Shown one piece after another: positions 4,592 through 63,947 of a DNA stretch of 64,000 nt. The translations under genes were made by a program, and so were the position numbers. Below the pieces are notes generated by a model, which made no database searches, was not told the origin of the DNA, and worked only from the letters and a program-made list of their open reading frames with translations. Source of the stretch: Argopecten irradians (lineage: Eukaryota > Mollusca > Bivalvia > Pectinida > Pectinidae); contig NC_091145.1 in the NCBI RefSeq assembly GCF_041381155.1, positions 41,753,697-41,817,696 on the forward strand, given 5' to 3'. Position 1 is the first letter of the stretch. Each line of letters opens with the position of its first letter.

Positions 4592-6593
4592 TCACTGCAT
4601 TGTAGATGTAATTAAAATGACTTTAGGCAGTTCTGCCAGAAATTGTTTTCAGCTCTTGTTTGTACTTGCAAAATCAAAACCTATAGATTGTAAGTATTGT
4701 AATTCTCAAAATCATATAATAAAACACCTCTTACGATATACAGTATATGATTTTAAGATATTACATTTTGGTCGGTTCGTTATCTGCTTCAGTTGTTTAA
4801 TCAAAATAAATATATATATATTTTTAATTTTAAGCAATACCAGTTTCCCTTATCGCATAGTCTAATCTAAGGTAATTCCGACTTTGTGAAGCTGTAGATT
4901 AAATCGTTGATATACCATTTCGATAGCGTAATAACGAGTTCACTTACGATGAAGTAGTTTAGGGATAATGTTGACGTCCTTTCTGATATATTGAGAGAGG
5001 GTGTTGGACTGGGCCGCGGCCAATATCGACCTTAACACTCCCTTGTACTCGTCAGGCAGGCTGTGGTACGCGTGACTGGACTCTAAACCAGCCAGGTAGT
5101 TGGCAGGTTTCGACCTCTTAGACCTTATCTAGAAACAGCACCACAATTATCTACAGCTAAACAGAAATCTGTGATATGACCGTTTAGATTTTTTAATTTA
5201 CTTTCACAGCAAGGATGTGTATATATAATAATAATTAAGAACATCATACTTACATTTGTATGTGGTGTCTCTGTAGAGGTGAAGGCTGTGGCCATTTGAG
5301 CTTGCTGTAATGTTATCATGCTTTCGTGTGTCAGGACCTATTACAAGGATTTAAACATCTTCAGAAATAATCCTTTTTCACTCAAAGATTCGTCAAAGAA
5401 GATTGACAATAATTTTTACAGGCAATAATTTACAAAGCAATATATTTGATTATGTACTAATGAAGTAACAGAACAAAAATATACCAGGTATGTCTAATCA
5501 ACAGAAAAAGCATTTTATATTAACTCACCTCCAGCATGTAATCTTCTAAATTATGGGCGGCATCAACGGGTAAATCTGTATGTAAAATAGTTATTTACAA
5601 TGGATTGAATTAACATTATGTCAAAAAAGGAGTTGAAGAATCTTTACGGCTTGCTTATCTTACCAAATATTCATTCTTAGCTCCCTCTGTGTAACATGGT
5701 ATCACTGATAGAACAATTACGCAATCATGTAAAAATACAAAAAAAAAAAAAAAAAACGTCGTATGAATGATGACAAACATTTCCAATTGTTTGTCCATGG
5801 AAAACAAAGGGCTGTCCACCTGCCCAATTCTGTGTGAGTTTATACGGAAGTTATACCGCACACATTATCATTTCATTGTGGTCTAAAGGAGCCCTATCAA
5901 GTTACTTAAGCTTTATTAGAGCTTTAATCTTCTGTTAACATTAATGGATGTCTGTGCAACATTTTCTGGAAATGACGTCGAAAGTTATTGATGGTTTAAA
6001 GTAGGTTTAAGTATCGATTAAATTTTAATAGAGCTTAGTTAGAACAACCAGCACTGGGTGTCCAACAACCGGCCCTGAATGTCCAACAACCGGTCCTGTC
6101 CAACAACCGGCCCTGAGTGTCCAACAACCGGCCCTGAGTGTCCAACAACCGGCCCTGTCCAACAACCGGCCCTGAGTGTCCAACAACCGGCCCTGGTGCC
6201 CAACAACGACCCTGAGTGTCCAACAACCGGCCCTGGGTGTCCAACAACCAGCCCCGGGTGTCCAACAACCGGTCCTGAGTGTCCAATAACCAGCCCTGTG
6301 TGTCCAACAACCATCCCTGAGTGTCCAACAATCGGCCCAACTCTGTTTGACATGATATAATACTTACGATTAATGAGGTTTAAGACAGATGAGAAGCCGA
6401 TCTTATCAATGCAGCCTGTAAGCTGGCCTGTCTTGGCAAATGATGCTATGTCCACCGTCAACTGTTGTAGTTCTGGGGACAGTGCCTGGTAAGCCGCATC
6501 GTCGTGTAGCAGGCTTAGGATTGACTGGAGGTCATTGTGTACATTGGCGTAGGTCAAGGTTAAAAGCAAGGTCAAGCCGACAACATATCGCAT
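4592..6593 (-). CDS. small secreted protein with duplicated exon module (5 coding exons, 192 aa)
   Basis: I do not recognise the family. Coding exons in transcript order are 6368-6593, 5529-5575, 5254-5337, 4948-5128 and 4592-4632 (last exon less sure). All have AG/GT borders and phases that agree. The protein starts with a signal peptide (MRYVVGLTLLLTLTYA, cleavage expected after the final A), so it is probably secreted. Exons 1 and 4 encode related ~45-residue modules: 'AYQALSPELQQL...CIDKIGFSSVLNLIN' and 'AYHSLPDEYKGVL...YIRKDVNIIPKLLH'. Both end in phase 1 at a ...ATC|GTAAGT donor. The following exons 2 and 5 both start with a related 'H/Q-LP' stretch, so a two-exon unit seems to have been duplicated. 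Exon 4 opens with IRSKRSK, a possible furin-type site that would split the precursor. The ATG is preceded by TTTTAG|ACAACC, so an upstream non-coding exon is likely. Confidence 0.72.
6045..6340. repeat. 21-bp minisatellite in intron 1 of the secreted-protein gene
   Basis: About 14 copies of a unit like CCAACAACCGGCCCTGAGTGT, with shortened variants of 15-18 bp, lie about 30 bp inside the intron that follows the first coding exon. Long open frames on both strands here are products of the repeat. Unlike the amidase arrays, this one does not contain the splice donor. Confidence 0.93.
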
Positions 6594-10988: not shown

Positions 10989-11039
10989 TACCAATCCAAC
11001 GATCGCGAAAACACAGGGACCTGACAACATCCATCCAAG

Positions 11040-12300
11040 ACTATTAAAAGAAACAGCTGACACTTAATCCAAGCCACTGTCAATTATATTTCAAAAATCC
11101 ATCGATGATGCGAAGGTACCAAAAATTTTGGAAAGAGGCTAACGTCACTGCCACTCACAAGAAAGGACCAAAAAAATCTAGTAGAAAATTACCGTCCCAT
11201 TAGCCTCACTTCAATAACATAAAAAATCATGGAAAACCTTGTGAGAGATGCCATCGTAAACCACATGGAAACTAACAACCTCTTTAGCGAATACCAAAAT
11301 GGCTTCCGAAAAGGAAATTCATGTGCAACCCAACTAATAGAAATGGTAGATAAGTGGACAGGAGAACTAGATAACAAAAATGATATTGACATCATCTACT
11401 TAGATTTCCAAAAAGCTTTCGATACTGTACCTCATCAGAGACTACTAAAAAATTATCAGGATACGGAATCACAGGAAATCTACTAAAATGGATTGAAGAC
11501 TTTCTAACTGACAGAAAACAACGAGTGGTATTAAATGGCGGAAATTCTGACTGGTCTTCCGTAACAAGTGGAATCCCTCAGGGGAGTGTACATCAATGAC
11601 CTACCAGAGGCTGTCGAAAACGCTGTTAGACTTTTTGCTGATGACACAAAACTTTTCTCTGTTGTCAATAATGTGAACGATCACCAAAAGCTACAAAGTG
11701 ACATAAACATTCTAATGAAATGGTCCAACGACTGGCAGCTGAAATTTAGGAACAAATAAACAAATTCCCGGGGACTATATCATGGATAATACATCAATCC
11801 AAACCAAATTCTAGGAGTGTTGAAAAGAAGCTTCAAATACTTAAACAATAGATCGTTCTGTAACCTTTATAAAGCCATGGTGAGACCACATCTGGAATAT
11901 GCATCTACCGTCTGGACAACAAATACAAAAAAAAAAAAAAAAAAAAAAAAAAGATAAAATCACACTTGAGAAAGTGCAGAGGCGTGCAACCAAACTCATC
12001 AAAAATATCCGAAACAAATCTTACCCAGAACGGCTACTCGATTTACGACTGCCAACCCCAGAATACAAACGTCTCAGGAGTGATATGGTGGAAGTATACA
12101 AAATTCTGAACGACATAGACAAATGTGATAAAAATTAATTACTTCCCCGAAGGCATACTCAAACAAGAGGTCACAGTAAAAAACTTGTGAAGGGACGTTC
12201 CAGACTAAACACCAGAAAAAATAGTTTCTCACAAAGAGTATTTAACCAATGGAACTCTCTACCTGAATATGTCATATCGTCAGAAACCAGTTTAAATCAA
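11040..12300 (+). pseudogene. LINE ORF2 C-terminal half: reverse transcriptase, broken
   Basis: 11229-11486 holds RT motifs 'NGFRKGNSCATQLIEMVDKW' and YLDFQKAFDTVPH (first catalytic Asp). 11568-11759 holds NDLPEAVENAVRLFADDTKLF with the FADD box. 11899-12138 holds KVQRRATKLI and 'LRLPTPEYKRLRSDMVEVYK'. Between 11486 and 11568 the SGIPQGS region is present but out of frame. A run of about 24 A residues at roughly 11930-11953 replaces conserved coding sequence ahead of KVQRRAT, which may be strand-slippage growth of a lysine codon tract. The copy cannot make an active enzyme. Confidence 0.85.
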
Positions 12301-39790: not shown

Positions 39791-40998
39791 TTAGTCTATT
39801 TTGACCACATCAACAGGAAGAGAATTCCAGGATTCCACTATCCTGTTACTGAAAACATTTCTTGCCGAGTTGAGACGAAAAGGTTTCTTGTAGAGTTTTT
39901 TATTATGACCTCTTGTACCTGTGTGTCTCATTGGAGTACACATGTTCTCACTGGTAACAATATCGATTTTGTTGATTATTTTGAAGGTCTCCACCATATC
40001 GGCCCTCAGTCTTCTATATTCAAGTGTTGGGATACCCAGGATCTTCAGTCGGTCTGGATAGGAGAGATCTTTGAGGTTTACTAGTCTTTTTGTGCCTCTT
40101 CGTGGACGTTTTCGATGGTTTTTATATCTTTTTTTATCCAGGGAGACCAAACGACAGAACAGTATTCCAAATGAGGTTTAACCAGAGTCTTATACAATGT
40201 TTTAAAAGTTTGGTTGTCAAGATACGTGAATGTTCTAAAAATGATACCCATGATTTGGTTTCCCTTTGTTGAAGCTTTATTCACTTGATTTGTAAATTTC
40301 AGGGTATTATCTATTGTGACTCCCAGATCTTCTTCACTGTTGGTTTTCCCAAGTCGTATTCTGTTGTCGCCGTCCTTTATGGTGTATTGTCTGTTAATGG
40401 GGATATTGCCAATTTCCATATGCTTGCATTTTTCTTTATTTAGTTTCATTAACCAGAGGTCAGTCCATTCGGAGATCCTGTCAATATTTCTCTGTAGCTC
40501 TTCACAGTCCTGTAATGTGTTGATTTTTGAAAACAATTTGGTATCATCCGCAAATAGTTTGGTAACACAATTCACTACCTCTGGGATGTCATTGACATAA
40601 ATTAGAAATAGTATGGGCCCGAGTACACTTCCTTGAGGTACACCGCTTTTTACTTTTTTGGTTTTGGAGCTTGTTCCATTTATAATAACCTTTTGTTGTA
40701 GTCCCGACAGAAATTGTTGTATCCATGACAGAATTTTGCCTCCAATTCCATAGGATTTTAATTTGTATATGAGGAGTCTATGGGATACTTTGTCAAAGGC
40801 TTTACTAAAATCCAAATAAATAACATCAATGTTGTTGTTGTTGTCAAGGGCCTGTGTCCAGTGTTCTAATACCTCCAGGAGCTGTGTTGTGCAAGACTTG
40901 CCTGGCGTAAATCCATGTTGTTCTGGTGACAGTAAATTGTTGATCTTTAGGTGCTCCATGATATTGTCACGTATTATCCTCTGTCGGTCTTTTGACAT
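39791..40998 (-). pseudogene. LINE reverse transcriptase and C-terminal region (N-terminally deleted)
   Basis: The frame 40081-40998 encodes 305 residues with RT motifs in order: EQHGFTPGKSCTTQLLEV, then DVIYLDFSKAFDKVSH, then KSGVPQGSVLGPILFLIYVN, then KLFADDTKLF (FADD catalytic pair), then EEDLGVTIDNTLKF. The C-terminal part continues in another frame at 39791-40150 ('PTLEYRRLRADMVETFKIIN', VFSNRIVESWNSLPVDVV), so one frame change lies near 40100-40150. The RT core motifs are all present, but the protein lacks its N-terminal half. Confidence 0.85.
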
Positions 40999-40999
40999 G

Positions 41000-41444
41000 T
41001 TGGGTGTAAAAGTAGTCCCTTGTTACCTCCAACAACCTCGTGGCGATATGTGCATCACCTACAGAGGTTGTGTTGGTTTTCCAGTCGATTTCTTTACAGT
41101 TGAAATCACCCACCAGTAATATGTGAGAGAAGTTACCATTAGAGATGGTTTCCAGTAGATTTACTAGTTTATTCGAAGTTGGTATTAATGTCTACTGCGT
41201 CATGGGTAATAGACGATCTAATATAAATGGCCACACCTCTCTTGTTTGAAGATTTTCCAAAATGAACACTGTAGTTATCGATAGAATATGACTGGTTGTT
41301 GATGACATCAAGGGAATATTTTGGATATATTTCCGTTACACATATTATATCCGGGTTTTTTTCTTTAATTTCTACTTCCAGTTCAGTTTTCTTTGATAGT
41401 GTTAACGTGTCCACATTACTGTATAAAACTTTAAGGTTTGCCAA
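41000..41444 (-). pseudogene. LINE AP endonuclease fragment
   Basis: It begins LKVLYSNVDTLTLSKKTELE with 'DIICVTEIYPKY', the first two conserved blocks of CR1-type endonucleases, then RGVAIYIRSSI. After a gap in frame, 41000-41160 still reads LLVGDFNCKEIDW, holding the D-x-N motif. The domain is cut short at about 41000, where the deletion joint to the RT lies. Confidence 0.75.
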
Positions 41445-42075
41445 TCCTTGGTAGCGGTTAAAATTGGTAAAATCTGTATCCTATGCCCTCTCTACTGTTG
41501 GTGATGTTGGTTCATCATCTGTGACCTCAGTTACTGTAGTGTTTCCTGTTGTGTCCCCGAAAGTTGATGTTTCCGCATATGGGAAGGTCACGTCATCTCT
41601 ATGATCTAGTAGGGTCCCTTGCGAGTATAGATCATCTGACATTGAGGTATCATGGTTGGACAGAATATGACCGGTTTGAATGTCCCTCAATGTAAGCATC
41701 GCCGTATTACTGTAGAAATACTGTGAAAGAAGACCAATGTAAAACTGGTTGATATGTATCTGCGCTTGTATTTTGTATTTTTCATGGGTTGTGTTATGAA
41801 CTGAATTTATCAATTAACTCGAAGTGTATATTATATAAGGGATTATATCACAGTTTCTTAAAAGGTTTTTGTCTTCAAATTGATTTCAGATGTAAGTTCA
41901 TTTATTCTGTAGTAATGCAAACAATAATCTGGGACAACATCTAAATGATCATTTTGAATTTGGAAAGAATTTAGAATAGCCTTGTTTCCTTTGTCTGACG
42001 TAGATCATTTGATGCGGGGCGTCAAGATCCATCTGTATTGCTCGTTTGTGTCTAGATGACGGATGATAATCACTA

Positions 42076-45000
42076 TGACAGATAGCATTAGGTTAAATTA
42101 GACACAGTAATTATATCTATACATATAGATAAGAGAGTTAGACTGTCCACTGTGTAGTGTCAGGATAGAGGGACCATGCTGAGTCAGTACCCCTGGCTGA
42201 AGGGAAGGGTTGACCCCCGTGGTGACCACATGATAGCAGGTCTCAGTAAGAGCTAAAATAAATGTGTTTGTTTTATATTTAAAACAAGTAATAAGTAAAG
42301 AATTATAATAGTGAATAATGTAATTTACTAAGCATTGGATACAGCAAGATGTGTATTATTGATATACTGAGTTACAATTCTATAGGCAGTATAGTTTGGA
42401 AGCTGTATAGCTTTTACAGTAATGTTTAGTGTGTGAAAGTCAGTATTTCTAATGTAACATTTGTAATTAATAATAGTTCTATATATTTTCTACATCATAA
42501 GAAAGAAGATAAAGTTATCTTTAATTTGCAACCTTTATATTGGTTGTGTACTGTATGGTTTCATTAATATATTAGGATAAAGATGTATCAGAAACACAGA
42601 CTAGGCCTGTCAGGCAAAACCTAGAGATCCTTAGGGAGTCTGATTAGGGTGTCTTCTACCAGGTGTTGCAGGGACTTGTATAGTAAGGTCTTAGAGCCCA
42701 AAATACAGTTCCAGAGAGACTAGTAGTTTGAGAAGTTCTAGAAGTGACAAAAGGTTATAGTAAGACCATTGGAATATATATATATATATAAACATGGAGT
42801 GCAATTGGTGAATGTGAGATGCTGATGATGTAAAATTGTGGAACCCTAAGTAATAAAAATGAGGAACTGGCAGTACGGATTGGACATTATATTTTTAGTG
42901 TAAACTAAGCATAATCATTATGTATGATTATGCAAGTGCTATGACCAGCCACGAGGGCCGGTCATACAGTGGTGGAGAATTCCGGGGCAGCATGTAACAC
43001 CTGCAGCTGCATAATAAAAAGGATCCACAGGAAAATGGTGTGTAGTGCTAGAATATTGAAAGGAGAAAAATGTTGATATCTTCAAATTCACTTAATTAAC
43101 TTCCCCTGATGGATATGGCAGAGGACAGAATCCTTCGGTGTGATCATAACCCCTTCCTTGTGGAGAACACTACAGTCTATACATTCTGTATGGTGAAGTA
43201 CAAGTTTATTGGTTTCCTGGATGGGATGGAAAGAGCCTCCGTTTGCAAAGATGGAGCCATCCTCACAGATGCACCAAACCCATGTGGCATTGTTTTCTAT
43301 GACACCATTCTTGAACAGTTTCGTACCATTTACCTGAACATAATGGATCTCAAACGACATTCCAGTACATTCAAATTCATCTATGGGTCAGACATAAAGG
43401 CAATTCGATGTGGAAGCTACAAGATCCAGACTCGGTTCACAAGGAAGAAAACCATGGAACCTGTTATACCAAGGGACAGTAACAAGCTGTCAGGAGTTGG
43501 TATCATCATGTGGATAGTCGCCTGTGTCTTATATATGACCACAAGGAAACTGGTTGTGGTGTTTAGCTTGGGGAATAAGCACTCATCACAAGAGACAGTG
43601 GATCGTTCAAAAAGAACAAGGACCATCTGTAGGGTACCCCAGCATCACCGGCAAGGGAAAGCACAATGTTACAAGGCACCAGATCAAATAGAGACACTGT
43701 CAGGTACACTCCATAAAAAGAAGTTGTAGTGTATATATAGAGTAGTTAAAAAAAAAAATTAGAAAAATGCCATTCCTCTAGTATTGTATGATTATTATTT
43801 TTGTTTTGATGTAGCGTATAATTGACACACAACCATGTAAGATAGTGGTATAAAGAAGAGTATGTAGGTATAAAATATATGCATATAGGTATATATGGGC
43901 ACCAGAAAGTACTAAATAGACTTTATATCCTTTTCTCATACTGATAGATCTTGAGCTTTAGCAACTTGAGTTCTAGGATTTCTAGCAGTTTCAGAATTAT
44001 TTACGAAATTTGTGCACAAAATATTCGGAAACTTTGGGGTAACATTTGTTTTTTTTAACTGTTAGGATTTTAGTATTTTGAGCCCTGCTTTAGTTATAGA
44101 TTTATTTTGTTGAGAATACGATAGTAAAATCCCTTTGAATATTACATATCAAATGTATTGTATAATTGTGCTGATATAAATACTCAAACCGTTCAGGGAC
44201 ATATCCAGGTACAGGTGTGTCTGAGGGTACAGAGAGTATCCAATAACTTAGGTACAGAAGGGTACTGGAAGGGTTAATACTTAAAGATAAAACTACCGGT
44301 AGAAATCAGTAATAGAACTAAGTTTGAGTAATCACCTCAGTTATGTTCATGGGATATAATAAGTCTTGGAGATATAAGTAGTACACAGGAATATGTGGTA
44401 CTGAGGCATGTAGGATACATGTATACAATGTATATAGCTATAGAGAAATAGTTATAAGAACACCAGTTAGTATTGTTCTGGAAAGCCAAACAGCTTTGGG
44501 AAGAATTCAGTATAAATAGCTGTATTGTAACGTTTTATTCAATAGATAGATGAACACTTACTCTCAGTGCTGAGATGATTTAGGACTTGTCCTATCTTTT
44601 TGTTCTATCACTCAAAATCTATTTTGTTTAAGAACGTTGCATGGAACCTACAATTTGTGTGCAATTTGTTGTTACTCAATGATATGAAACATGAACAGTT
44701 TCAAATGTGAGCTTAAACGCTATATTTTCAATCGTGGAATTGAAGTGGTTGTGAATATGTCAATGTATGGACAAAAGTGAATATATATAGTGCTAAAAAA
44801 ACACGGACAGTTTCAGTAATACAGCACTAGAATATATATTAAATTGAGCATTTTTATCGAACGTTCTACAGCTCATGGAAAACGAACTGTCACCAAGCAA
44901 AATGAGTTAATTTTTGCATGTCTATACAATATACTTATGAAATTATTATACATGATTATATATTATGTTGAGAATTGGAATGCAAGAGTGAGAAACAGAT

Positions 45001-46128
45001 AAAATAGAAATGATATTTTACAAATATTATGTACATATAAAGCAAATTTGTGGAACAAATTTAAATGGTGTAAGGGCGTATATGACAGATAGCATTAGGT
45101 TAAATTAGACACAGTAATTATATCTATACATATAGATAAGAGAGTTAGACTGTCCACTGTGTAGTGTGTCAGGATAGAGGGACCATGCTGAGTCAGTACC
45201 CCTGGCTGAAGGGAAGGGTTGACCCCCGTGGTGACCACATGATAGCAGGTCTCAGTAAGAGCTAAAATAAATGTGTTTGTTTTATATTTAAAACAAGTAA
45301 TAAGTAAAGAATTATAATAGTGAATAATGTAATTTACTAAGCATTGGATACAGCAAGATGTGTATTATTGATATACTGAGTTACAATTCTATAGGCAGTA
45401 TAGTTTGGAAGCTGTATAGCTTTTACAGTAATGTTTAGTGTGTGAAAGTCAGTATTTCTAATGTAACATTTGTAATTAATAATAGTTCTATATATTTTCT
45501 ACATCATAAGAAAGAAGATAAAGTTATCTTTAATTTGCAACCTTTATATTGGTTGTGTACTGTATGGTTTCATTAATATATTAGGATAAAGATGTATCAG
45601 AAACACAGACTAGGCCTGTCAGGCAAAACCTAGAGATCCTTAGGGAGTCTGATTAGGGTGTCTTCTACCAGGTGTTGCAGGGACTTGTATAGTAAGGTCT
45701 TAGAGCCCAAAATACAGTTCCAGAGAGACTAGTAGTTTGAGAAGTGTAACATTTGAAATACTGACTTTCACACACTAAACATTACTGTAAAAGCTATACA
45801 GCTTCCAAACTATACTGCCTATAGAATTGTAACTCAGTATATCAATAATACACATCTTGCTGTATCCAATGCTTAGTAAATTACATTATTCACTATTATA
45901 ATTCTTTACTTATTACTTGTTTTAAATATAAAACAAACACATTTATTTTAGCTCTTACTGAGACCTGCTATCATGTGGTCACCACGGGGGTCAACCCTTC
46001 CCTTCAGCCAGGGGTACTGACTCAGCATGGTCCCTCTATCCTGACACTACACAGTGGACAGTCTAACTCTCTTATCTATATGTATAGATATAATTACTGT
46101 GTCTAATTTAACCTAATGCTATCTGTCA
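42076..46128. mobile_element. 4.05-kb element with long inverted ends and a nested direct copy of one end
   Basis: 42076-42736 (661 bp) recurs as a direct copy at 45083-45745 (663 bp). Immediately after that, 45746-46128 is the inverted copy of the first ~383 bp. The outer ends are therefore inverted repeats (TGACAGATAGCATTAGG ... CCTAATGCTATCTGTCA). Outside, TAATCACTA (42067-42075) and TAATCACCA (46129-46137) form a probable 9-bp target duplication with one mismatch; if TA belongs to the element, only ATCAC is shared. Long inverted ends and a 9-bp duplication suggest a foldback or Mutator-like DNA element, not an LTR element. No transposase was recognised. The copies are nearly identical, so the rearrangement is recent. 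Confidence 0.75.
43109..43729 (+). CDS. hypothetical 206-aa ORF inside the inverted-end element
   Basis: This is the longest frame in the element interior. It has one good hydrophobic segment (GVGIIMWIVACVLYMTT) followed by a basic C-terminal tail. The N-terminal half has scattered cysteines. No family recognised. The opposite strand is also open over 43088-43360 (90 codons, with tryptophan/cysteine pairs and protein-like composition), so the true coding strand, if any, is unsure. The rest of the interior (43730-45082) is AT-rich and non-coding. Confidence 0.3.
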   Translation: MDMAEDRILRCDHNPFLVENTTVYTFCMVKYKFIGFLDGMERASVCKDGAILTDAPNPCGIVFYDTILEQFRTIYLNIMDLKRHSSTFKFIYGSDIKAIRCGSYKIQTRFTRKKTMEPVIPRDSNKLSGVGIIMWIVACVLYMTTRKLVVVFSLGNKHSSQETVDRSKRTRTICRVPQHHRQGKAQCYKAPDQIETLSGTLHKKKL

Positions 46129-46929: not shown

Positions 46930-49900
46930 CTAGGCACTTTTATCCCTAATTTGTTCAAAAGCACGCGCCATCTGAAGGACTGTTAAGTCATCGAAGTGTC
47001 GACCGATGATCATCATTCCGACTGGAAGTCCACCCACCTCTCCGGCATTGATCGTCAGGGCCGGGTGACCGGTGGAGTCAAAAGGCGCTGTGTTCTTTAT
47101 CATTCCGAACGTAAGGTGGATAATTTCTGTAAGTACAGATTTAATAATGTATCATAAGGCAACCCACAGACGAGAGATGTATTTTATACCTAACTTATCC
47201 GACCGGTAGAGCCATTAGGATGGACAAATTTTATACATAACTTACCCGACCGGTAGAGCCATTCCGAGATATATATATTATAATAACTTACCCGACCGGT
47301 AGAGCCATTAGGATGGACAAATTGTATACCTAACTTACCCGACCGGTAGAGCCATTACGAGATATATATATATTATAATAACTTACCCGACCGGTAGAGC
47401 CATTACGAGATATATATATTATAATAACTTACCCGACCGGTAGAGCCATTAGGATGGACATATTTTATACCTAACTTACCCGACCGGTAGAGCCATTACG
47501 AGATATATATATAATACCTAACTTACCCGACCGGTAGAGCCGTTACGAGATATATATATTATAATAACTTACCCGACCGGTAGAGCCATTACGAGATATA
47601 TATATTATAATAACTTACCCGACCGGTAAAGCCATTACGAGAGATATATATTATAATAATTTACCCGACCGGTAGAGCCATTACGAGAAATATATATTAT
47701 AATAACTTACCCGACCGGTAGAGCCATTACGAGATATATATATTATTATAACTTACCCGACCGGTAGAGCCATTACGAGAGATATATATTATAATAACTT
47801 ACCCGACAGGTAAATCCATTACGAGGGACATATTTTATACCTAACTTACCCGACCGGTAGAGCCATTACGAGATATATATATTATAATAACTTAACTGAC
47901 CGTTAGAGCCATTACGAGAGATATATATTACAATAACTTACCCGACCGGTAGAGCCATTACGAGAGATATATATTATAATAACTTACCCGACAGGTAAAG
48001 CCATTACGAGGGACATATTTTATACCTAACTTACCCGACCGGTAGAGCCATTCCGAGATATATATATTATAATAACTTACCCGACCGGTAGAGCCATTAC
48101 GAGGGACATATTTTATACATAACTTACCCGACCGGTAGAGCCATTACGAGAGATATATATTATAATAACTTACCCGACCGGTAGAGCCATTACGAGATAT
48201 ATATATTATACATAACTTACCCGACCGGTAGAGCCATTACGAGAGATATATATTATAATAACTTACCCGACAGGTAAAGCCATTACGAGGGACATATTTT
48301 ATACCTAACTTACCCGACCGGTAGAGCCATTACGAGAGATATATATTATAATAACTTACCCGACAGCTAAAGCCATTACGAGGGACATATTTTATACATA
48401 ACTTACCCGACTGGTAGAGCCATTACGAGATATATATATTATACATAACTTACCCGACCGGAAGAGCCATTACGAGAGATATATATTATAATAACTTACC
48501 CGACCGGTAGAGCCATTACGAGATATATATATTATAATAACTTAACTGACCGGTAGAGCCATTACGAGATATATATATTATAATAACTTATCCGACAGGT
48601 AAATCCATTATGAGGGACATATTTTATACATAACTTACCCGACCGGTAGAGCCATTATGAGAGATATATATTATAATAACTTGATTGACCGGTAGAGCCA
48701 TTACGAGATATATATATTATAATAACTTACCCGACAGGTAAATCCATTATGAGGGACATATTTTATACATAACTTACCCGACCGGTAGAGCCATTACGAG
48801 ATATATATATATTATAATAACTTACCCGACCGGTACAGCCATTACGAGATATATATTTTATAACTAACTTACCCGACCGGTAGAGCCATTACGAGAGATA
48901 TGTATTATAATAAATTACCCGACAGGTAAAGCCATTATGAGGGACATATTTTATACATAACTTACCCGACCGGTAGAGCCATTACGAGAAATATATATTA
49001 TAAATAACTTACCCGACAGGTAGAGCCATTACGAGATATATATTTTATACCTAACTTATCCGACAGAGACATATCAATCGTTGGTAGGGCCATTACGAGT
49101 GATATATATTATACATACCTTACCCGACCGGTAGAGCCATTACGAGATATATATATTATAAATAAATTACCCGACCAGTAGAGCCATTACCAGAGATATA
49201 TATTATACATACCTTACCCGACCGGTAGAGCCATTACGAGATATATATATTATAAATAACTTACCCGACAGGTAGAGCCATTCCCAGAGATATAGTTTAT
49301 ACCTAACTGATCCGACAGAGACATATCAATCGTTGGTAGGGCCATTACGAGTGATATACATTATACATAACTTACCCGACAGGTAGAGCCATTACGAGAT
49401 ATATATATTATACATAACTTACCCGACAGGTAGAGCCATAACGAGATATATATTTTATAACTAACTTATCCGACAGAGACATATCAATCGTTGGTAGGGC
49501 CATTACGAGTGATATATATTATACATACCTTACCCGACCGGTAGAGCCATTACGAGATATATATATTATAAATAAATTACCCGACCAGTAGAGCCATTAC
49601 CAGAGATATATATTATACATACCTTACCCGACCGGTAGAGCCATTACGAGATATATATATTATAAATAACTTACCCGACAGGTAGAGCCATTCCCAGAGA
49701 TATAGTTTATACCTAACTGATCCGACAGAGACATATCAATCGTTGGTAGGGCCATTACGAGTGATATACATTATACATAACTTACCCGACAGGTAGAGCC
49801 ATTACGAGATATATATATTATACATAACTTACCCGACAGGTAGAGCCATAACGAGATATATATTTTATAACTAACTTACCCGACAGAGACATATCAGTCG

Positions 49901-52900
49901 TTGGTAGGCCCATTTACTTACCCGACAGAGATATATCAGTTGTCGGTAGAGTCATAACGAGAGAATAATTTATACCTAACTTACCCGACAGGTAGAGCCA
50001 TTACGAGAGAATAATTTATACCTAACTTACCCGACAGAGACATATCAGTCGTTGGTAGGGTCATTAACCTACCCGACGGAGACATATCAGTCGTTGGTAG
50101 GGTCATTAACTTACCCGACAGAGACATATCAGTCGTTGGTAGGGTCATTAACTTACCCGACAGAGACATATCAGTCGTTGGTAGGGTCATTAATTTACCC
50201 GACAGAGACATATCAGTCGTTGGTAAGGTCATTAACTTACCCGACAGAGACATATCAGTCGTTGGTAGGGTCATTAACTTACCCGACAGAGACATATCAG
50301 TCGTTGGTAGGATCATTAATTTACCCGACAGAGACATATCAGTCGTTGGTAGGATCATTAACTTACCCGACAGAGACATATCAGTCGTTGGTAGGATCAT
50401 TAACTTACCCGACAGAGACATATCAGTCGTTGGTAGGCCCATTTACTTACCCGACAGAGATATATCAGTTGTCGGTAGAGTCATAACGAGAGAATAATTT
50501 ATACCTAACTTACCCGACAGGTAGAGCCATTACGAGAGAATAATTTATACCTAACTTACCCGACAGACACATATCAGTCGTTGGTAGGGTCATTAACTTA
50601 CCCGACGGAGACATATCAGTCGTTGGTAGGGTCATTAACTTACCCGACAGAGACATATCAGTCGTTGGTAGGGTCATTAACTTACCCGACAGAGACATAT
50701 CAGTCGTTGGTAGGGTCATTAATTTACCCGACAGAGACATATCAGTCGTTGGTAAGGTCATTAACTTACCCGACAGAGACATATCAGTCGTTGGTAGGGT
50801 CATTAACTTACCCGACAGAGACATATCAGTCGTTGGTAGGATCATTAATTTACCCGACAGAGACATATCAGTCGTTGGTAGGATCATTAACTTACCCGAC
50901 AGAGACATATCAGTCGTTGGTAGGATCATTAACTTACCCGACAGAGACATATCAGTCGTTGGTAGGGTCATTAACTTACCCGACAGAGACATATCAGTCG
51001 TTGGTAGGATCATTAACTTACCCGACAGAGACATATCAGTCGTTGGTAGGGTCATTAATTTACCCGACAGAGACATATCAGTCGTTGGTAGGGTCATTAA
51101 TTTACCCGACAGAGACATATCAGTCGTTGGTAGGATCATTAACTTACCCGACAGAGACATATCAGTCGTTGGTAGAGCCATCGCTGTGGATGGCAGTGTT
51201 GGCATTATCAGGACGTCGTAGGATCTTAGCGCCTGGTCGTACGCCTGAGTCAAAAGGCGCGTGAGATTCTGAGCTTTAGCATAAAACTTATTCTGGTAGT
51301 TCCTGGCCATGTATTCTGAGAAAACTGACAAGAGTTTACATGGCATACTGAAATCGTGAGGACGGAGATTGTAACTGCGGGTCAGGGCCTCCTGCATGGA
51401 CAAACAGTATTGTCCCTTCCAGTTCTGTCCATTACCTGTACAGACCATAATATTACAGGTAAGAATGATATATTGAAATATTTACAGTTTGCACTGACAC
51501 GGACTCAATAATCATGCTTTCTAGTATTATTATTTTCAGTGTATAATGTAAGCACAACATGCGCGGCGATTCTATTGTTACGTGAATGCAACGTGGGGTC
51601 ATGACCCCACTTTTGGCGGGAACATATGAATGACTCGATTCCAGTCAGCTGTTCAATCGAATTCGTTGACGATGACGGGAGCGAAAAAATATGGGTATTT
51701 TAATAAAAAATATGCAACTACCGCGGGAATAAATAATATTAATTTACTTGAAAAACTGTAAATATAAGGAATAGATGTTTATTTTGTTGAGGTTATGATG
51801 GTATAATGATAACGGAGCCCGTGTAAATTTTATGTAACCCCGGCTTTCTATTCCTTAATAATACATTGTTGAAATAAATCATAAATATATTTATTTCCTT
51901 GTTAAGCTATAATAAATGAACTTTTAACATTCAACTTTTATTAATTTTTAATTACGGTTTTGCTCTTTTGAAGTACAATAAGTGGACTTACCATTTCCCT
52001 TTATCATCATGTTGTAACAGCCTTCGAAACAAACCGGTGTCCATATGTCAAGTCCTAGAAATATAAACTTCATTGTAAGTTAAACTAACTTGTCGGTACT
52101 TAAAATGGTTTATTGTCTTGTCATCCTTTTTTGCCAAATTCCAAATCTAATTGTTTAAAGGACCAAGGTGAGCTGATGCAATACCGCGGAGTCCGGCGCC
52201 CGGCGTCCGTCGTCCGTCCGTCCATCAACAATCGACTTCTTCTTCATAACCGCAGGTCGAAAATTCGACTGGTAGCATCCTTATGGGGCACTTACTGAAA
52301 ATTGTACATATTATTGGACTGACTCCCCAGGGGCCTGAGGGGTGGGGCCAAAAGGGACCAGTTGAGCTGTTTTCATTTAATTGACTTCTTATCTGAAACT
52401 AAGCATTGGATAGCACTGATATTGTATTGGTATCATCCTTATGGGGTAGGGATTCAAAATTGTACAAATGGTGGTGTTGACCCACCCACACCCGAGGGGC
52501 CTGAGGGGCGGGGCCAAAAGGGGTCATTTTGGCTGTTTTCATGTAAACGACCTCTTCTCTGAAACTAAGCATTGGATAGCATTCATATTGCATTGGTAAA
52601 ATCCTTATGGAGTGGGGATTATAAATTGTACAAATGGTGGGACCATTTTTCAATTTTGCTATTTCAAATTGTAAAAGTTTTTATGATAATTACTAAATAA
52701 ACCAGATGAGCGATACAGGCCCTATAGGCCTCTTGTTTGTTATCTGTGAACGACCGAGAGTAACTTACCGTCTGCGTGGAGAGGCACTGAAACCTCCTCT
52801 ACCACGATTCCTGCTGCTGTCAGACTATTTGCCGCTTTTCTGACACAACCTGATACTCCACTGTCTACGTCGATAAACCCTTCCGTCACAATTCCGGCTC

Positions 52901-55884
52901 GTTTACCAACAACACTTTCCTTGAGCTATCAAAGATGAGAAAATTATACATGGTTCATAAAAAATCAATCATTTATTAACATCGGTATAATGAAATGGCG
53001 CGCTAAATGCATTAATACACGAACAAATTAATGTATTTAGATCATTGTGTAACGGCTTCCGATAAAACGTCACATTCCGATCAGTTTTAAAGACAAGTCG
53101 TCATTATTTAAGTCAAATACGTTTTACCCTCAACGATTAATTCACAAAGTATGTCCTGCTTTGTCACCGAATTGTTGAATGGTGTCTAGGGTAAGATTGC
53201 TACTTACCAAACTTGAGTAGGGTGGGACTACGATGCCCGGATGTTGTCGAGGGTCCGTACCGTTATCGTACCCGGCCAGAACCTGAACAAACAACACATG
53301 TGAATTTATTTTATCCCATAACTATGCATGTTTCACAATGGAAAACCCATGTGATAAATTCCATAGCAGTTGGTTATCGTTTATGTTTACACACTCCAGT
53401 GTGTAAACACCTTCGGCGCCTCTGATTGGTCAACTCCAAGATCTCTTGATTCCGATTGGCTCTCAACTTTGGGCTACTTTTTACAGCGCGTTTTCTTTTA
53501 AACATCATTGTATTTACTGTTTAACAGATAGTTGCTTATTCAGGTGTTTATCATGTTTGTCTAAACTCTCGTTAATTAATTTTAAAATTTTTGAAAGACA
53601 CTCGCTAAAGCTCGTGTCTTTTCAAAATTTGAAAATTAACTAACTCGAGTTTGATAAACATGATAAACAACAGTCACTTGTTGGAGGAACCTCTATATAG
53701 GTATTAATGGAGTACGTACATAACCTGTCGTTGAGGTATTTAAATATGTCTTCTCTGGCCCATTTGAAACCTTTGGCCATGCGACACAAATGTAATAACA
53801 TGACCGTTTTGATTAGTTGAACGTTACAATAGCAGCGATAGTCATTTAAGGATGTGTAATTTGGAGTCTGAACTTAAATAGCAGAAAGTCGGGGATATTC
53901 CTAGTGGTGATTAGTATTATAGGAACTACAAAAACAAATTCACTCTCCCAATCACACGGCCTCAATCCGTAGTATTTTTTCAAAATCTAATTTAGAAGGT
54001 CTTTATAAGCAAAGACGTGTTCGTTTTAATAAGAACCTACCTCATTTTTTATAAATCGTTGCTTTATACGGTATTATATCATAGCCACTTTAACTATGGA
54101 AAATGCGTCATCGAAAAGTCTAATGGGGTAGCCCAATTACGTTTAAAAAGTAAAGATGTTTCATTGAAGGGTTTAAGATATTTAACCTACAACACCATCC
54201 GACCAAGAATAAAGCCCAGTCATCTACCGTACATTTTACATATTACCTCGAAGAAAAGAGCACAGTCCTCTACTGTGCGGGCGATGGACAATACATTACC
54301 TCAAGGAAAAGAGCACAGTCCTCTACTGTCCTGGCGATGGACAATGCATTACCTCAAGGAAGAAAGCACAGTCCTCTACTGTGCGGGAGATGGACAATAC
54401 ATTACCTCGAGGAAGAGAGCACAGTCATCTACTGTGCGGGCGATGGGCAATACATTACCTCGAGGAAGAAAGCACAGTCCTCTACTGTCCTGGCGATGGA
54501 CAATACATTACCTCGAGGAAGAAAACACAGTCCTCTACTGTGCGGGCGATGGACAATACATTACCTCGAGGAAGAGAGCACAGTCCTCTACTGTCCGGGC
54601 GATGGGCCCCAGGTGATCCACTGTCAGCTCTATGGGGACAGCTCCTGTGTAGGGGACCAGTCCGAATGTTGGCTTGTGTCCCACCACTCCACACCAGCTG
54701 GATGGGATCCGGATCGACCCCCCCTGATCTCCACCGACAGCCAGGTCTATCTCACCTCGAGCAACCTTTACATTTAAAATAGTCATCAAAGATCGGTGTC
54801 GACTTATGTATCCAATGGAATAGAGAATAGTAGTAAATGATATCAGGGTGAGATAGTAATAACTTGACACTACGATCTGTACTGGAACAATCAGCATCCA
54901 AGAATACTGCTATTTGGTAACAAGATAAGTTAGCATGCTCCCTTTCCTCGTTATCTAAGGAATAGATTTTTATTTTGTTGAGGTTATGAGGGTATAATGA
55001 TAATGGAGCACGTGTAAATTATGTAACCCCGGCGAAGCCGTGTCACATACAATTTACACGGGCTCCATTAGTATTATACCCTCATAACCTCAACAAAATA
55101 AAATCAATTCCTTATATTTACAGTTTTTCACGTAAATGAATATTATTTATTCTCGCAACAGTTGCATATTTTTTTTTATTAAAATACACATTTTTTTCTC
55201 TCCCGTCATCATCAACGAATTCGATTGAACAGCTGATTGGAATCGAGTCATTCATATGTTCCCACCAAAAGTGGGGTCATGACCCCACGTTGCTACGCTA
55301 TTCCCGTAACAATAGAATCGCCGCGCGTGTTGTGCTATCATTATACACTGATAATGATAATACTAGAAAGAATGGTTATTGAGTCAGGGCAAATTGTAAA
55401 TATTAAAATATGGTCGAATGAGTTATATCATCCAAACAATAACTTCCATAGATATCTCAAATGCGGATATCAAACTCGGTAATAATAATGATCAGTAATA
55501 TCCCACACCGTATAGCAATGGTGTCGACTACGAAGAACCGCAAGAATGATGCTGCTGCTGCTGCTGATGATGATGATAATGGTGGTGATGATGATGATGG
55601 TGGTGTGATGTGATGATGATGATGATGATGAGATGATAATGGTGGTGATGATGATGATGATGATATGATGATGATGACGATGATGATGATGATGATAATG
55701 GTGGTGATGATGATGATGATGATAATGATGATGATGACGATGATGATGATGATGATAATGGTGTGATATGATGATGATGATGATGGCATACTTACAAGAA
55801 TGATGATGATGATAATGGTGGTGATGATGATGATGATATGATGATGATGATGATGATGATGATGACGATGATTGCACACTTACA

Positions 55885-55932
<48 letters not shown>

Positions 55933-55946
55933 GCATACTTACAAGA

Positions 55947-55979
<33 letters not shown>

Positions 55980-56072
55980 GCACACTTACAAGAATGATGA
56001 TGATGATGATGATTGCACACTTACAGGGATGATGATGATGATGGTGATGATGATGATGATGATGTTGCTGCT

Positions 56073-56103
<31 letters not shown>

Positions 56104-56129
56104 ATGAAGATGATTGCATACTTACAAGA

Positions 56130-56172
<43 letters not shown>

Positions 56173-56241
56173 CGATGATTGCATACTTACAAGGATGATG
56201 ATGATGATGATGATGATGACGATGATTGCATACTTACAAGA

Positions 56242-56274
<33 letters not shown>

Positions 56275-56288
56275 GCATACTTACAAGA

Positions 56289-56384
<96 letters not shown>

Positions 56385-59300
56385 CTGCTGCTGCTGCTGA
56401 TGATGATGATGGTGGTGGTGGTGATGATGATGATGATGACGATGATGATAATTGCATACTTACAAGAGAGGCGGATCCACTGCTGGATCCTCCGGCACTC
56501 CGCGTGGGACAGTGGGGGTTAGGGACCGGCCCTGAGGATGAAGTCCACGAGTTCCCAGACAAACATAGGTCTTCACATGTCGTCTTACCCAGAACACGCC
56601 CACCTGTCGACAAATGTCTTCAATCTAACCTTATGTTAAATCCAGTGATTGTGATCACTTTAGACTCCCAGCTCCATCGTGTTTACGATATGGAAAGTTA
56701 CCTTCAAATTGTTATCTTTCTTATCTCTATTTCCTTTAATGATTTTCTATGGACAATTTTAAGTAAAGGATTTCTCTTAAAGAGCTGACTGCGATTTTTC
56801 GAAAAAAGTTAAGACTTCAGTCAAAACTTCAGTTTTCTCCTTGTGTTAACTAGGCTGGCAATTGACACCGTTGTCAATTTTCTTGAACACGAGAAATTAA
56901 CGACAGAGTCTGATATTAAGAAATGTTTTGAACTTCAACAATTAATTCAATCAGTTGGTCAAACTAAGGCAAAGCAAACAACCATCAACGCTTTTTTCGG
57001 CTCTAAGTCGAGCATGTAACTATTATGTCATATGTGTAAGTTAACAGTTATCTATGTTTTACGACGAGACATTGAATTATCATTCTACGTGATCATAATC
57101 TTACATTCAAGATGTTGAAATTTCAATAATCATCCAGTTCAATTTGATAAACATGTATTTCAGCTGAATATAATGTTTTTTGACAGAAAGTACGTCTTCA
57201 AGTTATTTGTTCACTGTTATATTACTCTGCGTTACGTGCACATGATAAATCCCACAACGAATCCGATATACCGCCAAACTCGATACATCGCCAAAATACA
57301 ATGAAACAGAAGGTGGCGATATAACGGGGTTTTACTGTATGTGAATAAAATTGACCTGTTAGAAATTTGTGTCGAAAAATCGGGCAATGTCCTCTGCAAA
57401 TAACAGCTATAATCTAGATTATGTTTATGACACATTACCAGCATCAAGAGTCCTTGTAACAACGGTAGCGTCAAATTCTGGAGTATATCCCTCTAAATGT
57501 TTGTTGCCGTTCATCATTGGAACGCCCGCCACAGCCACATTGTCTTTGATTCCCACGGTTTTACCAGCCAACTTTCCAGTGTCGGCACCTTTGATGTCAC
57601 ATCGCCAGTACCTGAATAAAAACAAAGAACGACCATTATTGACATCATTTATATTTTGGGTATAGACTACCAGATACATTATCGTCACTATATCACTCAT
57701 CAGTTCTGTGATACAAGCGATTACCGTTTTCCATTTCCTCAAGTTTGGTATACTTCAATTTTTAACGTATACCTACATATAGCTACCTAAGTTTGTACTT
57801 TAAATACGAAGAATATTTCGGCTATTTACTATACACACCAAGCGTTATCTTTCGTTTCTCTGTGCCCCGGGGTCCTTGGGTATTTCACAGGGAGTTGTGG
57901 TTCTGGAATTTCGTTGACTCTCTGATAAGCCTTCATCGTCCCCTTGAAGTGCTCTGCAAAGGATACATCTATTTTGGAATTGTTCTTTTGGAATATCTGA
58001 ATTGTTTGTAGCATGTTTATCATCTGCCTTTAAACTGAACATCGCTAACGAACCCGGGATGTCTTAGATTGGCTATATTACTAGAAAATCAGACGTTCAT
58101 ATTCAGAAATGACAAGATCACTGGAGTTGTTATTAAAAAGACTTTACTGAAACAGGCGTTATGTAGGTTACATTCCCATTAAAGTTCTTCAATATTCCAA
58201 ATGAATTTATCTTCACTTAGTGTTCTCATCTTCGAAGTAGTTTCTACAAAATTTCATATGTTAAAACTTATAAAATAAATTGAACATGTATATGTGTGTG
58301 CCTGATAATGTCCCAGACCGAATCATCTGTCTCAAATGAGAAAGGTAAAAGTTGTTTATGTTAAGAGGCATTAGGTATATAAATGACGTATACTGCTGAA
58401 TTCATCTAATGCATTATAACCTTACGTTTCCTTGTGTGTCTTGACTATGTCATTACCTATATTTTTTCATACTTGGTCGCAGTTGACGTGATAATCAGAT
58501 AAATGTATTTACACAGGGGTAAAGTGTTGTATCTAAATGATATACAAAATGACAAGTTTGGGTTGTGTTTTCGTCACTATAATCATATCATGACCTTTAA
58601 TGATACCACTCCGACTTTAAAACCATAAATGCTACATGTGCTACAAGATAACCGGAGTAGATCAACCCTGTATATATTGTAGTCCGTCGCAAACTAATTT
58701 AGTTTAAAAGTATTTATTCATATATCGATATATGTACATACAAAATATAGTATATTTGGGATTGGAGAACAAGCTTATAAAGCATATATAAAATATTATG
58801 CGTCTGTCACGCCTGAGTCAGGAATTGAAAATGTAAAATATCTTATGACATAAATTGATTAATTACGTTCTTCATGCATTGTTATTTGCTCTTGTAAACA
58901 TGTATTATGAAGATGGTGTAAGTTTGTCAGTACTTTTAAGATGGACATCGTAATGTTATGTCAAGACAATACCAGTTCAAAGCAGAAGATACTTTGGCTC
59001 ATTAATGGTATATACCGTGGAATGCCTCTATCTCCTCTTCGGAACATTTCAGGCGCAGATCTTCAGAAATCTTTGCCAATTCTTCTTTTGATGGCATCAA
59101 AACGGCAGGACTCTTCAGAAGTTCTAGAGCAAAACAAAATATACAAAGCAATAACAATTCCGTTGTGATATTTTATTTGAAAATTATCCCATTAAAAATC
59201 GTTGAATGTAAATGATAAATTCTGAAGCAAAATAAAGAAAAATCATAATAATTTTATAACAAATAAGACGAACATAACTAATGATTTACAATTCAACACA

Positions 59301-60172
59301 AATACTATACTTACATTGTAGAAATCTCCATCGCTTTGACATAAATCGTGTGTATTTCAATTTGTGTGAAAAATGGTTAAGAACTTTGATGACGTGATAC
59401 TTTTTGTACAGCAGTTTTTTTTTATATTTGCCTTTCTGTAGCATCTATTTGACTTTATTAGCATAGATGAGCTCAATATTTGTTCTGTATTCCAAATTCT
59501 ACAATGCCATCATGTATGGTATACACTAGCGGGTTATACTATGTGTGTTACTCGGTCGTTATCGAGTATGCAGGTTTATGTATGTCAGGCTAGCACTCGT
59601 ATGCGAAAGTTAACTCTTATAAGATATCAAGTGACCTGTCCTTGCATTACATGCATACAGGCATTTACTAGCATGCGTAATATTCACCTTGGTGTTAGCA
59701 TTTAGTAGCATTTAGTTTTGTATTTATTGACAAGGTAACAATGGAACGTTGGTATTTTTAAACACCTTTACATGTCACCGAGCCATCATATAGGAAGGTG
59801 TTATCAGTTATAAACTGGTACTCCAGACAGTGTCCCGCCGCCTGCCTTGATCATTGGTTAACAGCTTACACACGTGAGACACATATACAAACACACACAC
59901 ATACTCAAATGATCATGTTGAAAATTGCGAGTCTCTGTAATAACCTACTGTTGCTCTCGATACTGACCCGAGATCAATAACCTTTACAATGTAATGTACT
60001 ATTTTATAACGCACGTATATACCAGCTGGATGTGCCATCCTGTCAGCCTTTGTAATCTATTCATGCGTACTGTATATCATGCTTTGGTGCATGGGTTATA
60101 TAATCATTAAAACAATGAGGGCAAACGTGCACATCCATCCTTTCCATGATCCTATAAATACTCACCGGCCAT
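46930..60172 (-). CDS. amidase-signature family serine hydrolase (FAAH-like fold), 11 exons, 507 aa
   Basis: Exons in transcript order: 60166-60172, 59016-59123, 57839-57953, 57439-57611, 56464-56603, 54565-54765, 53208-53282, 52769-52925, 51992-52054, 51148-51435 and 46930-47126. They sum to 1524 bp with every splice phase agreeing. The start is [20 protein letters not shown]. The Ser-Ser-Lys triad is complete: Lys99 (VGIKDN), Ser174 in AGGSSSGSA, and Ser198 in [11 protein letters not shown]. The spacing is the same as Lys142/Ser217/Ser241 of mammalian FAAH. The family cleaves amide (or ester) bonds; the substrate here is unknown. It resembles the soluble amidase-like proteins of invertebrates, since no signal peptide or N-terminal membrane helix is seen. 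The C-terminus holds '[20 protein letters not shown]'. Oddity: introns 5, 6 and 10 each start with an array that repeats the exon tail and its 5' splice site. Exon 1 is the weakest call. Confidence 0.92.
47140..49905 (-). repeat. ~46-bp tandem array in amidase intron 10, each unit carrying a 5' splice site
   Basis: Roughly 55-60 copies of a 44-47-bp unit. Read on the gene's strand, the unit is ATGGCTCTACCGGTCGG|GTAAGT followed by an AT-rich TATATATCTC-type spacer. The 5' part looks like the tail of exon 10 (ATGGCTCTACC...GTCGG|GTAAGT) with about 18 bases removed, so the array probably derives from that exon end. In the exon 10 frame the unit reads ALPVG then a stop inside the donor. Larger blocks inside the array are also duplicated (49080-49470 and 49500-49900). 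Confidence 0.93.
49905..51180 (-). repeat. 42-bp tandem array next to amidase exon 10, each unit carrying the exon tail and its 5' splice site
   Basis: About 25 copies in two blocks (about 50030-50440 and 50560-51180). Each unit on the gene's strand ends ACTGATATGTCTCTGTCGG|GTAAGT, identical or nearly so to the real exon 10 end. 42 bp is 14 codons, and the frame from exon 10 stays open through both blocks as a 14-residue peptide repeat ([14 protein letters not shown] or LMT). A ~529-bp segment is itself duplicated (49907 matches 50436). Confidence 0.95.
51470..51905 (+). repeat. dispersed element with 18-bp palindrome, copy 1 (amidase intron 9)
   Basis: Contains the perfect palindrome GTGGGGTCATGACCCCAC, then 'CAGCTGTTCAATCGAATTCG', GACGATGACGGGAG, and 'ATTTTGTTGAGGTTATGATG' with an ACACGGGCTCC-like end. 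It is the inverted counterpart of 54940-55375. Family unknown. Confidence 0.8.
52150..52745 (+). repeat. dispersed mollusc-type repeat in amidase intron 8
   Basis: Begins 'AAGGACCAAGGTGAGCTGAT', contains CGTCCGTCGTCCGTCCGTCC and two copies of a ~190-bp module (GGGGCCTGAGGGG, 'ACTTCTTATCTGAAACTAAG' and GACCTCTTCTCTGAAACTAA). It ends GAGCGATACAGGCCCTATAG GCCTC. This layout is familiar from bivalve genomes as a high-copy dispersed repeat. Confidence 0.65.
53546..53668. repeat. long inverted repeat (hairpin, ~55-bp arms) in amidase intron 6
   Basis: GTTTATCATGTTTGTC...GAGTTTGATAAACATGATAAAC can pair end to end, with centre near CGCTAAAGCTCG. Another small palindrome (TGTTTACACACTCCAGTGTG and on) lies just upstream at about 53385. 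Such fold-back units may be MITE relics. Confidence 0.75.
53800..53885 (-). mobile_element. worn Meta-SINE-like tail in amidase intron 6
   Basis: The string 'ttgattagttgaacgttaca' followed by 'tcatttaaggatgtgt' and 'agaaagtcggggatattc' parallels the tail and core of the SINE at 12454-12671. The tRNA head is absent. Confidence 0.5.
54243..54612 (-). repeat. 53-bp tandem array at the start of amidase intron 6, each unit carrying the exon tail and its 5' splice site
   Basis: The donor of exon 6 (CTTCCTCGAG|GTAATG) and the preceding ~37 exon bases recur at an exact 53-bp period, with the donor TTAC on the plus strand at 54243, 54296, 54349, 54402, 54455, 54508 and 54561. The copy at 54561 is the true exon edge and the other six are extra. 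Because 53 is not a multiple of three, a stop (ACAG TAG) appears within the next unit, so use of any extra donor would truncate the protein. Confidence 0.95.
54940..55375 (-). repeat. dispersed element with 18-bp palindrome, copy 2 (amidase intron 5), with terminal hairpin
   Basis: Inverted counterpart of 51470-51905 with the same GTGGGGTCATGACCCCAC palindrome (around 55272-55289). Its left end (54957-55112) is a long hairpin: 'AAGGAATAGATTTTTATTTT' at one side pairs with AAAATAAAATCAATTCCTT at the other, around GTAACCCCGGCGAAGCC. Confidence 0.8.
55545..56463 (-). repeat. impure GAT/ATC microsatellite at the start of amidase intron 5 with nine extra copies of the exon 5 donor
   Basis: Runs of (GAT)n with GCT and GGT interruptions. 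Inside them the string GATTGCATACTTACAAGAATG or a close variant recurs near 55791, 55879, 55938, 55984, 56020, 56121, 56186, 56233 and 56280. On the gene's strand this is CTT|GTAAGTATGCAATC, the same as the true exon 5 donor (exon edge 56464). All long open frames here are microsatellite artefacts. Confidence 0.95.
58054..59015. other. amidase intron 2, no feature seen
   Basis: AT-rich non-coding sequence. The intron spans 57954-59015; intron 4 (56604-57438), intron 3 (57612-57838) and intron 1 (59124-60165) likewise hold nothing that I can identify. Confidence 0.4.
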
Positions 60173-63675: not shown

Positions 63676-63947
63676 TAGGTGGTTTTGTTTTGTTTGGTTG
63701 TTTTATCGTCATATTAACAGCCATGGTAATTTAAGGATGTGTCAGGTTTATGTTGTGGAGGAAAGTCGGAGTACCCGGAGGAAAAACCGCCTTCATACAG
63801 TCAGTACAACTGCCCCACTTAGAAATCCACCCATAGGTAGAGGGCTTGTGATAATATGTTGTTACATCTTAACCACTCGGCCACCGCGGACCACTCGGCC
63901 ACCGCGGTCCACTCGGCCACCGCGGACCACTCGGCCACCGCCGAATA
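63676..63947 (-). mobile_element. Meta-SINE-like element in PTGR1 intron, with box A region expanded
   Basis: Core CCGGGTACTCCGACTTTCC (minus strand) and tail as in 12454-12671. The tRNA head reads CGGTGGCCGAGTGGTTAAGA, but the 18-bp piece GGTGGCCGAGTGGTCCGC is repeated four times (63873, 63891, 63909, 63927 on the plus strand). Box B is degraded (TGGGTGGATTTCTAAGTGGG), so this copy is unlikely to be transcribed by Pol III. Confidence 0.8.

Follow-up and report, generated by a model that had tools for sequence, protein, structure and literature searches.

Tandem arrays carry the 5' splice sites of three introns in one scallop amidase gene and are probably tolerated through use of the first donor

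The closest described counterparts of the arrays reported here, which occupy the starts of three introns of one amidase gene in the scallop Argopecten irradians, are the "mirages" of amphioxus, minisatellite-like tandem repeats that lie across an exon-intron boundary and include its splice signals (PMC3087553 and PMC3902484). In these two reports, mirages are described for Adh3, the globins BflGb6 and BflGb9, PGBD5, and troponin C (the PGBD5 case being added by PMC3902484, which cites the one in troponin C), and splicing is reported to be regular despite their presence. In human segmental duplications, PMC2812944 describes internal tandem repeats located at exon-intron boundaries and, for all variable repeats that modify genes, gives an average of 30-bp units and 4 copies. 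The OCT1 (SLC22A1) variant rs35854239 is an 8-bp donor duplication that, according to PMC8137991, mis-splices 38 to 52% of minigene transcripts; in liver, 0.3 to 0.6% were mis-spliced by deep sequencing and expression was reduced, and the authors propose that the wrong transcripts are degraded. Intron gain via tandem duplication, with potato RdRp among the cases, is reviewed in PMC4974935. The designed library of PMC6783452 indicates that the first of two equal tandem donors is favored, while acceptors follow no such order. The scallop gene lies in the 64,000 nucleotides of contig NC_091145.1 analyzed here, which we call the window.

Introns 5, 6, and 10 of this gene each begin with an array that carries the GT donor in the gene's orientation, giving 9, 6, and 85 extra sites, respectively (9, 6, and 76 of them with GT). 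The original prediction, made from the letters alone, had identified these arrays correctly, but its statement that no named system of this kind existed is contradicted by the amphioxus mirages. We consider the arrays to be, most probably, junction-spanning minisatellites of the mirage type, tolerated since splicing mainly takes the donor that is transcribed first. The gene model was corrected with P0001, a public protein from a 1,840-base contig in a cluster of four members, and its features are as follows.

46930..60172, minus strand: amidase gene (PF01425), 11 exons, 507 amino acids; joined exons corrected with P0001
60166-60172, 59016-59123, 57839-57953, 57439-57611, minus strand: amidase exons 1 to 4
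56464-56603, 54565-54765, 53208-53282, 52769-52925, minus strand: amidase exons 5 to 8
51992-52054, 51148-51435, 46930-47126, minus strand: amidase exons 9 to 11
55546..56463, minus strand: intron-5 array, an ATC microsatellite with nine extra TTCTT/GTAAGTATGCAATCATC blocks
54565..54605, minus strand: exonic part of the intron-6 unit, the final 41 bases of exon 6
54242..54564, minus strand: intron-6 array, six extra 53-bp copies with donor GAG/GTAAT
51148..51181, minus strand: exonic part of the intron-10 unit, the final 34 bases of exon 10 (11 residues plus one base)
47170..51147, minus strand: intron-10 array, 85 intronic donor copies in units of 42, 46 to 48, and 63 to 64 bp
47127..47190, minus strand: intron-10 3' tail, 64 bases beyond the last donor core

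The amidase model matches PF01425 in Pfam with an E value of 7.9e-89, and among solved structures 3a1k and 3a1i, both amidases, come nearest to it. P0001 fixed the exon 3 acceptor, so that an earlier model of 512 amino acids was superseded by the one of 507; the Pfam, structure, protein-search, and relatives' alignment results were obtained with the 512-residue version. P0001 equals the 507-residue model except at residues 283 and 305, which are A in the window and V in P0001. Among named relatives, identity is 86% for Pecten maximus, 85% for Ylistrum balloti, and 76% for Mizuhopecten, and one Branchiostoma protein (53%) scores between the named scallop relatives in the protein search. The Pecten, Ylistrum, and Mizuhopecten proteins align without gaps across all three array-bearing junctions, and it is therefore probably the exon end that is ancestral and the copies that are derived.

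The largest array fills nearly all of intron 10 (47127-51147, 4,021 bp), which contains 86 donor cores when the exon's own is counted. GT is kept in 76 of the 85 intronic copies, and the exact exon nine-mer (-3 to +6) is kept in 61. The spacings between cores are 42 (25 cases), 46 (23), 47 (29), 48 (2), 63 (2), and 64 (4) bp. The 42- and 46-bp units that had been proposed are indeed present, while the proposed number of about 80 donors has to be raised to the 85 above and a third class, of 63 to 64 bp, added. The 42-bp units, which include those closest to exon 10, combine 34 bases of exon with 8 of intron; the 46- to 48-bp units lack approximately 17 to 18 of the exon bases, and the 63- to 64-bp units have the exon part and approximately 30 more bases. 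In the simplest order of events, the long unit would have come first and the two shorter classes would be re-amplified deletions of it. Blocks of approximately 410 to 440 bp inside the array have identities of 98.2% and 99.5%, which marks recent block duplication and a concerted homogenization of this array. In the 3' tail, the first part is unit-like and the final 40 bases are present once; a single donor joined to this tail would make an intron of 72 bp.

The unit in intron 6 includes approximately 41 exon bases, and GT is present in all six copies. In intron 5, between 1 and 3 mismatches are found in 5 of the 9 TTCTT/GTAAGTATGCAATCATC blocks, and GTAAGT occurs 10 times in sense (the real donor counted) and never in antisense, all nine extra copies having kept it. 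Here the overlap with the exon is only some 4 bases (TCTT). Thus, a unit spanning the exon end and the splice site is found in all three arrays, with 34, ~41, and ~4 exon bases in introns 10, 6, and 5, and the earlier claim that the exon end itself is amplified holds for introns 10 and 6 but is weak for intron 5. Each array runs on from the genuine exon end, with its donor in sense. The copied exon parts of the 42-bp class in intron 10 (25 copies) differ by 2 synonymous and 5 nonsynonymous distinct changes, a ratio of 0.40 compared to 0.38 expected without constraint, and those of intron 6 (6 copies) differ by 4 and 5, a ratio of 0.80 compared to 0.33 expected. The idea of coding repeats under constraint was dropped, since intron 10 is near neutral and the synonymous lean in intron 6 comes from 9 changes only. 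Introns 9 (51502-51838) and 5 (55042-55385) also contain what is probably a small transposable element, one copy inverted relative to the other, with four arm pairs of 61 to 126 nucleotides that are 87 to 91% complementary.

As for which donor is used, the 1,840-base contig of P0001 falls far short of the gene's 13 kb and must therefore be spliced, and we infer that it is a transcript assembly. P0001 joins exons 5 and 6, 6 and 7, and 10 and 11 at the outermost donors, i.e., the exon's own, which are the first to be transcribed. Regular splicing is undisturbed at all three arrays in this one contig-derived protein, with minor isoforms possible, as short-read assembly is prone to lose repeated isoforms and this limits what P0001 can say on the use of inner donors. 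Every inner donor of intron 5 (9 of 9) and of intron 6 (6 of 6) would, if used, give a frameshift or a premature stop. In intron 10, the 14 GT donors closest to the exon, out of 76, are open and in frame, and the other 62 are not.

No amidase acceptor lies within an array by the bounds of Tandem Repeats Finder (TRF), the nearest being 44 bp off. Each of introns 5, 6, and 10 was searched for further copies of its own final 40 bases, with up to 8 mismatches allowed, and no copied acceptor was found. The creation of new introns was rejected as an explanation because the duplicated copies supply no acceptor.

A likely history would begin with a short tandem duplication over the exon end and the intron start. 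Unequal exchange or slippage could then multiply the duplication inside the intron, including the blocks of ~410 to 440 bp, and the mRNA and protein would remain normal, however many donors follow, if the first transcribed donor is mainly chosen. At an acceptor, the same event would be more likely to upset the mRNA, and the survivors would then be found mainly at 5' splice sites, making survivorship the cause of the donor bias. The link to tolerance is that equal tandem donors, unlike acceptors, appear to be used on a first-come, first-served basis in the designed library (PMC6783452). This first-donor rule predicts that arrays should lie on donors far more often than on acceptors, and the arrays suggest a simple path for intron growth.

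Some observations weigh against this explanation. Mirages in amphioxus are also reported at 3' boundaries (BflGb6), so a filter against acceptors cannot be absolute, and the mis-splicing of the OCT1 variant reported in PMC8137991 implies that the first-donor rule leaks and that copying a donor can be costly. The synonymous lean of the copied exon parts in intron 6 is not predicted by it, although the numbers are small. Finally, the share of arrays on junctions exceeds the share expected from intron length, which pure tolerance alone would not raise.

This last point depends on how the other arrays in the window are counted. TRF gave 52 overlapping rows that reduce to ten main arrays covering 24.4% of the window, a set that leaves out the A run at 11927-11952 (26 bases), the array at 63872-63941, and rows with fewer than 3 copies. 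Three of the ten are on amidase donors and seven are without a recognized donor, with only two genes modeled; two of these seven belong to the surroundings of the neighboring gene, and in the other five no splice site of any kind was recognized. The features that enter the comparison are the following.

6043..6338, minus strand: 21-bp array that begins 29 bp into intron 1 of the neighboring gene, donor not included
6593-6368, 5575-5529, 5337-5254, 5128-4948, minus strand: exons of the neighboring predicted gene
4404-4557: array downstream of the last modeled donor of the neighboring gene
52325-52640 and 59425-59464: TRF rows with fewer than 3 copies in amidase introns, away from junctions
63872-63941: 18-bp array, 3.9 copies (TRF)

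The putative product of the neighboring predicted gene (6593-4948, minus strand) looks secreted, and its 179 amino acids as modeled come from exons that join in one open frame; Pfam found no family at an E value of 0.001 in it or in nine other open reading frames (ORFs).

The chance models scattered seeds uniformly across intron sequence; built after the result was seen, in a window picked by a reader, they overstate the surprise. The probability that a given array spans a donor was 0.058 to 0.087 over the four unit lengths tried. All three amidase arrays of at least 3 copies would fall on donors with P of 4.1e-4 and on junctions of any kind with P of 3.3e-3. For at least three of five, counting either every array that TRF lists in the amidase introns or those with at least 3 copies in the amidase and neighboring genes, it was 3.7e-3 and 0.026, and for at least three of eight (all of these plus 63872-63941, with the A run left out), it was 0.018 and 0.10. 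With seeds uniform over the window, ~0.13 arrays would be expected on the 14 recognized donors, and P for at least three was ~2.5e-4.

These estimates are most relevant to the rival explanation that a mutational mechanism favors exon-intron borders, for example through breaks or slippage linked to transcription, nascent RNA, or a step in composition, and copies donors time and again. The three arrays of this gene, which differ in sequence and period and all cover donors, would fit such a bias (the three-of-three P being about 4e-4), as would the composition steps at borders (exons are 51% GC, compared to 35% in introns outside the arrays) and the fourth window array, which begins 29 bp into an intron. 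However, that fourth array (6043-6338) does not include its donor, 7 of the 10 main arrays lack a recognized one in a window with two modeled genes, the case comes from a single gene and a post hoc model, P rises to 0.018 (donors) and 0.10 (any junction) once all eight arrays in or near recognized genes are counted, those of two copies included, and we found no molecular trace of a mechanism of this kind; we consider the explanation unlikely. A broader proposition is that borders are a recurrent mutational target where a process at the nascent 5' splice site seeds arrays, in molluscs as in amphioxus, with first-come donors then allowing near-limitless expansion. We put it forward only tentatively, as somewhat improbable, and both ideas are slightly lowered by the weakening of the chance estimates when arrays are counted more widely. 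If it were true, 5' splice sites would be a general route of intron growth, possibly from a 72-bp intron to one of 4,021 bp. The shared copying mechanism in the original prediction survives as a recurring junction-spanning process, which is a fair description and may or may not involve a dedicated copying mechanism.

Selection for redundant donors, also suggested originally, would keep the copies as backups or to recruit the U1 small nuclear ribonucleoprotein (snRNP), guarding a long intron or tuning expression. A strong consensus is indeed retained (the nine-mer in 61 of 85 copies in intron 10 and GTAAGT in 9 of 9 in intron 5). Conservation was examined in the 54 units of the 46- to 48-bp class, 36 of them distinct, whose copies are related by block duplication and are not independent, making the test weak. 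There, GTAAGTTA (0.965) was second best of 41 windows, with 1 better, and GTAAGT (0.954; 6 of 43 windows better) and CGGGTAAGT (0.957; 6 of 40 better) also ranked high, but GT itself was conserved at only 0.917, with 29 of 47 dinucleotide windows better, and the +1 G was kept in 86% (0.86) of the 36 distinct units. Means for the exon-derived part and the AT-rich spacer were 0.948 and 0.870, respectively. A selected donor should retain its +1 G foremost, so we read this result, mixed as it is and drawn from related copies, as leaning against selection. P0001's use of the first donors also speaks against it, as does the broken frame or early stop that would follow at all 15 inner donors of introns 5 and 6 and at 62 of the 76 GT donors of intron 10; we find selection very unlikely. 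It is highly improbable that the 42-bp array serves to make protein length variants by adding in-frame 14-residue repeats from the inner donors nearest the exon. The 14 open, in-frame GT donors of the 76 in intron 10 do lie closest to the exon, and such isoforms are apt to be lost in a short-read assembly, but P0001 has no insert, the array peptide (ORF residues 115 to 300) had no protein match at an E value of ≤0.001 among 7,997 candidates scored, and the open frame simply follows from a 42-bp unit free of stops. Blocks of 98 to 99.5% identity in intron 10 could come from haplotype or assembly duplication, but three unrelated arrays with internal variants and several unit classes would be hard for an assembler to invent; it is extremely improbable that assembly created the arrays or inflated their lengths, copy number being the doubtful part.

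Elsewhere in the window, a 4.5-kb array of 80-bp units (35054-39521) carries 51 GTAAG on the plus strand; no exon was recognized beside it and it was not counted among the donor-spanning cases, but it may be either chance or the mirage of an unseen gene. Reverse transcriptase domains (PF00078) at 11223-11483 and 40084-41022 lie in the retrotransposon-like ORFs 9011-11756 (plus strand) and 40084-41480 (minus strand), and Pfam found no such domain in 9011-9427. Direct copies at 25620-26427 and 29736-30477, with near-identical ORF translations, flank ORFs in 26549-28351 and the arrays 28372-28631 and 28782-29599, which is possibly the layout of a mobile element with terminal repeats. One sequence with a near-identical ORF translation is present three times in both orientations (42101-42355, 45098-45364, and 45849-46103), ~0.8 to 4.8 kb past the 3' end of the amidase gene.

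Compared to the known systems, the scallop arrays share with intron gain by tandem duplication, as reviewed for potato RdRp in PMC4974935, a duplication across or near splice signals, but they have no copied acceptor and show no sign of a new intron. The human repeats of PMC2812944 are likewise minisatellites, some of them at exon-intron boundaries; those repeats are described as making novel introns or alternative transcripts, whereas the scallop arrays lengthen introns that already existed and leave the only known product as it was. The OCT1 variant resembles a likely first step, with the intron start and donor duplicated, but it has a single extra copy, and its second donor is reported to be used in about half of the minigene transcripts and little in liver. 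Mirages are the closest, with the same span over the boundary, carried splice signals, and reportedly undisturbed regular splicing. The scallop case differs in coming from a mollusc, in having three arrays in the same gene with each of them at a donor, and in reaching 86 donor sites, while the mirages described in the globins and PGBD5 have 2 to 7 units and include some at acceptors. We met no description of mirages in molluscs in the open-licence literature searched, in which no search paired the two, and we make no claim to a first report. In conclusion, the kind is already known as mirages, and what may be new is the scale of 86 sites, the presence of three donor arrays in one mollusc gene, and the link to the first-donor rule.

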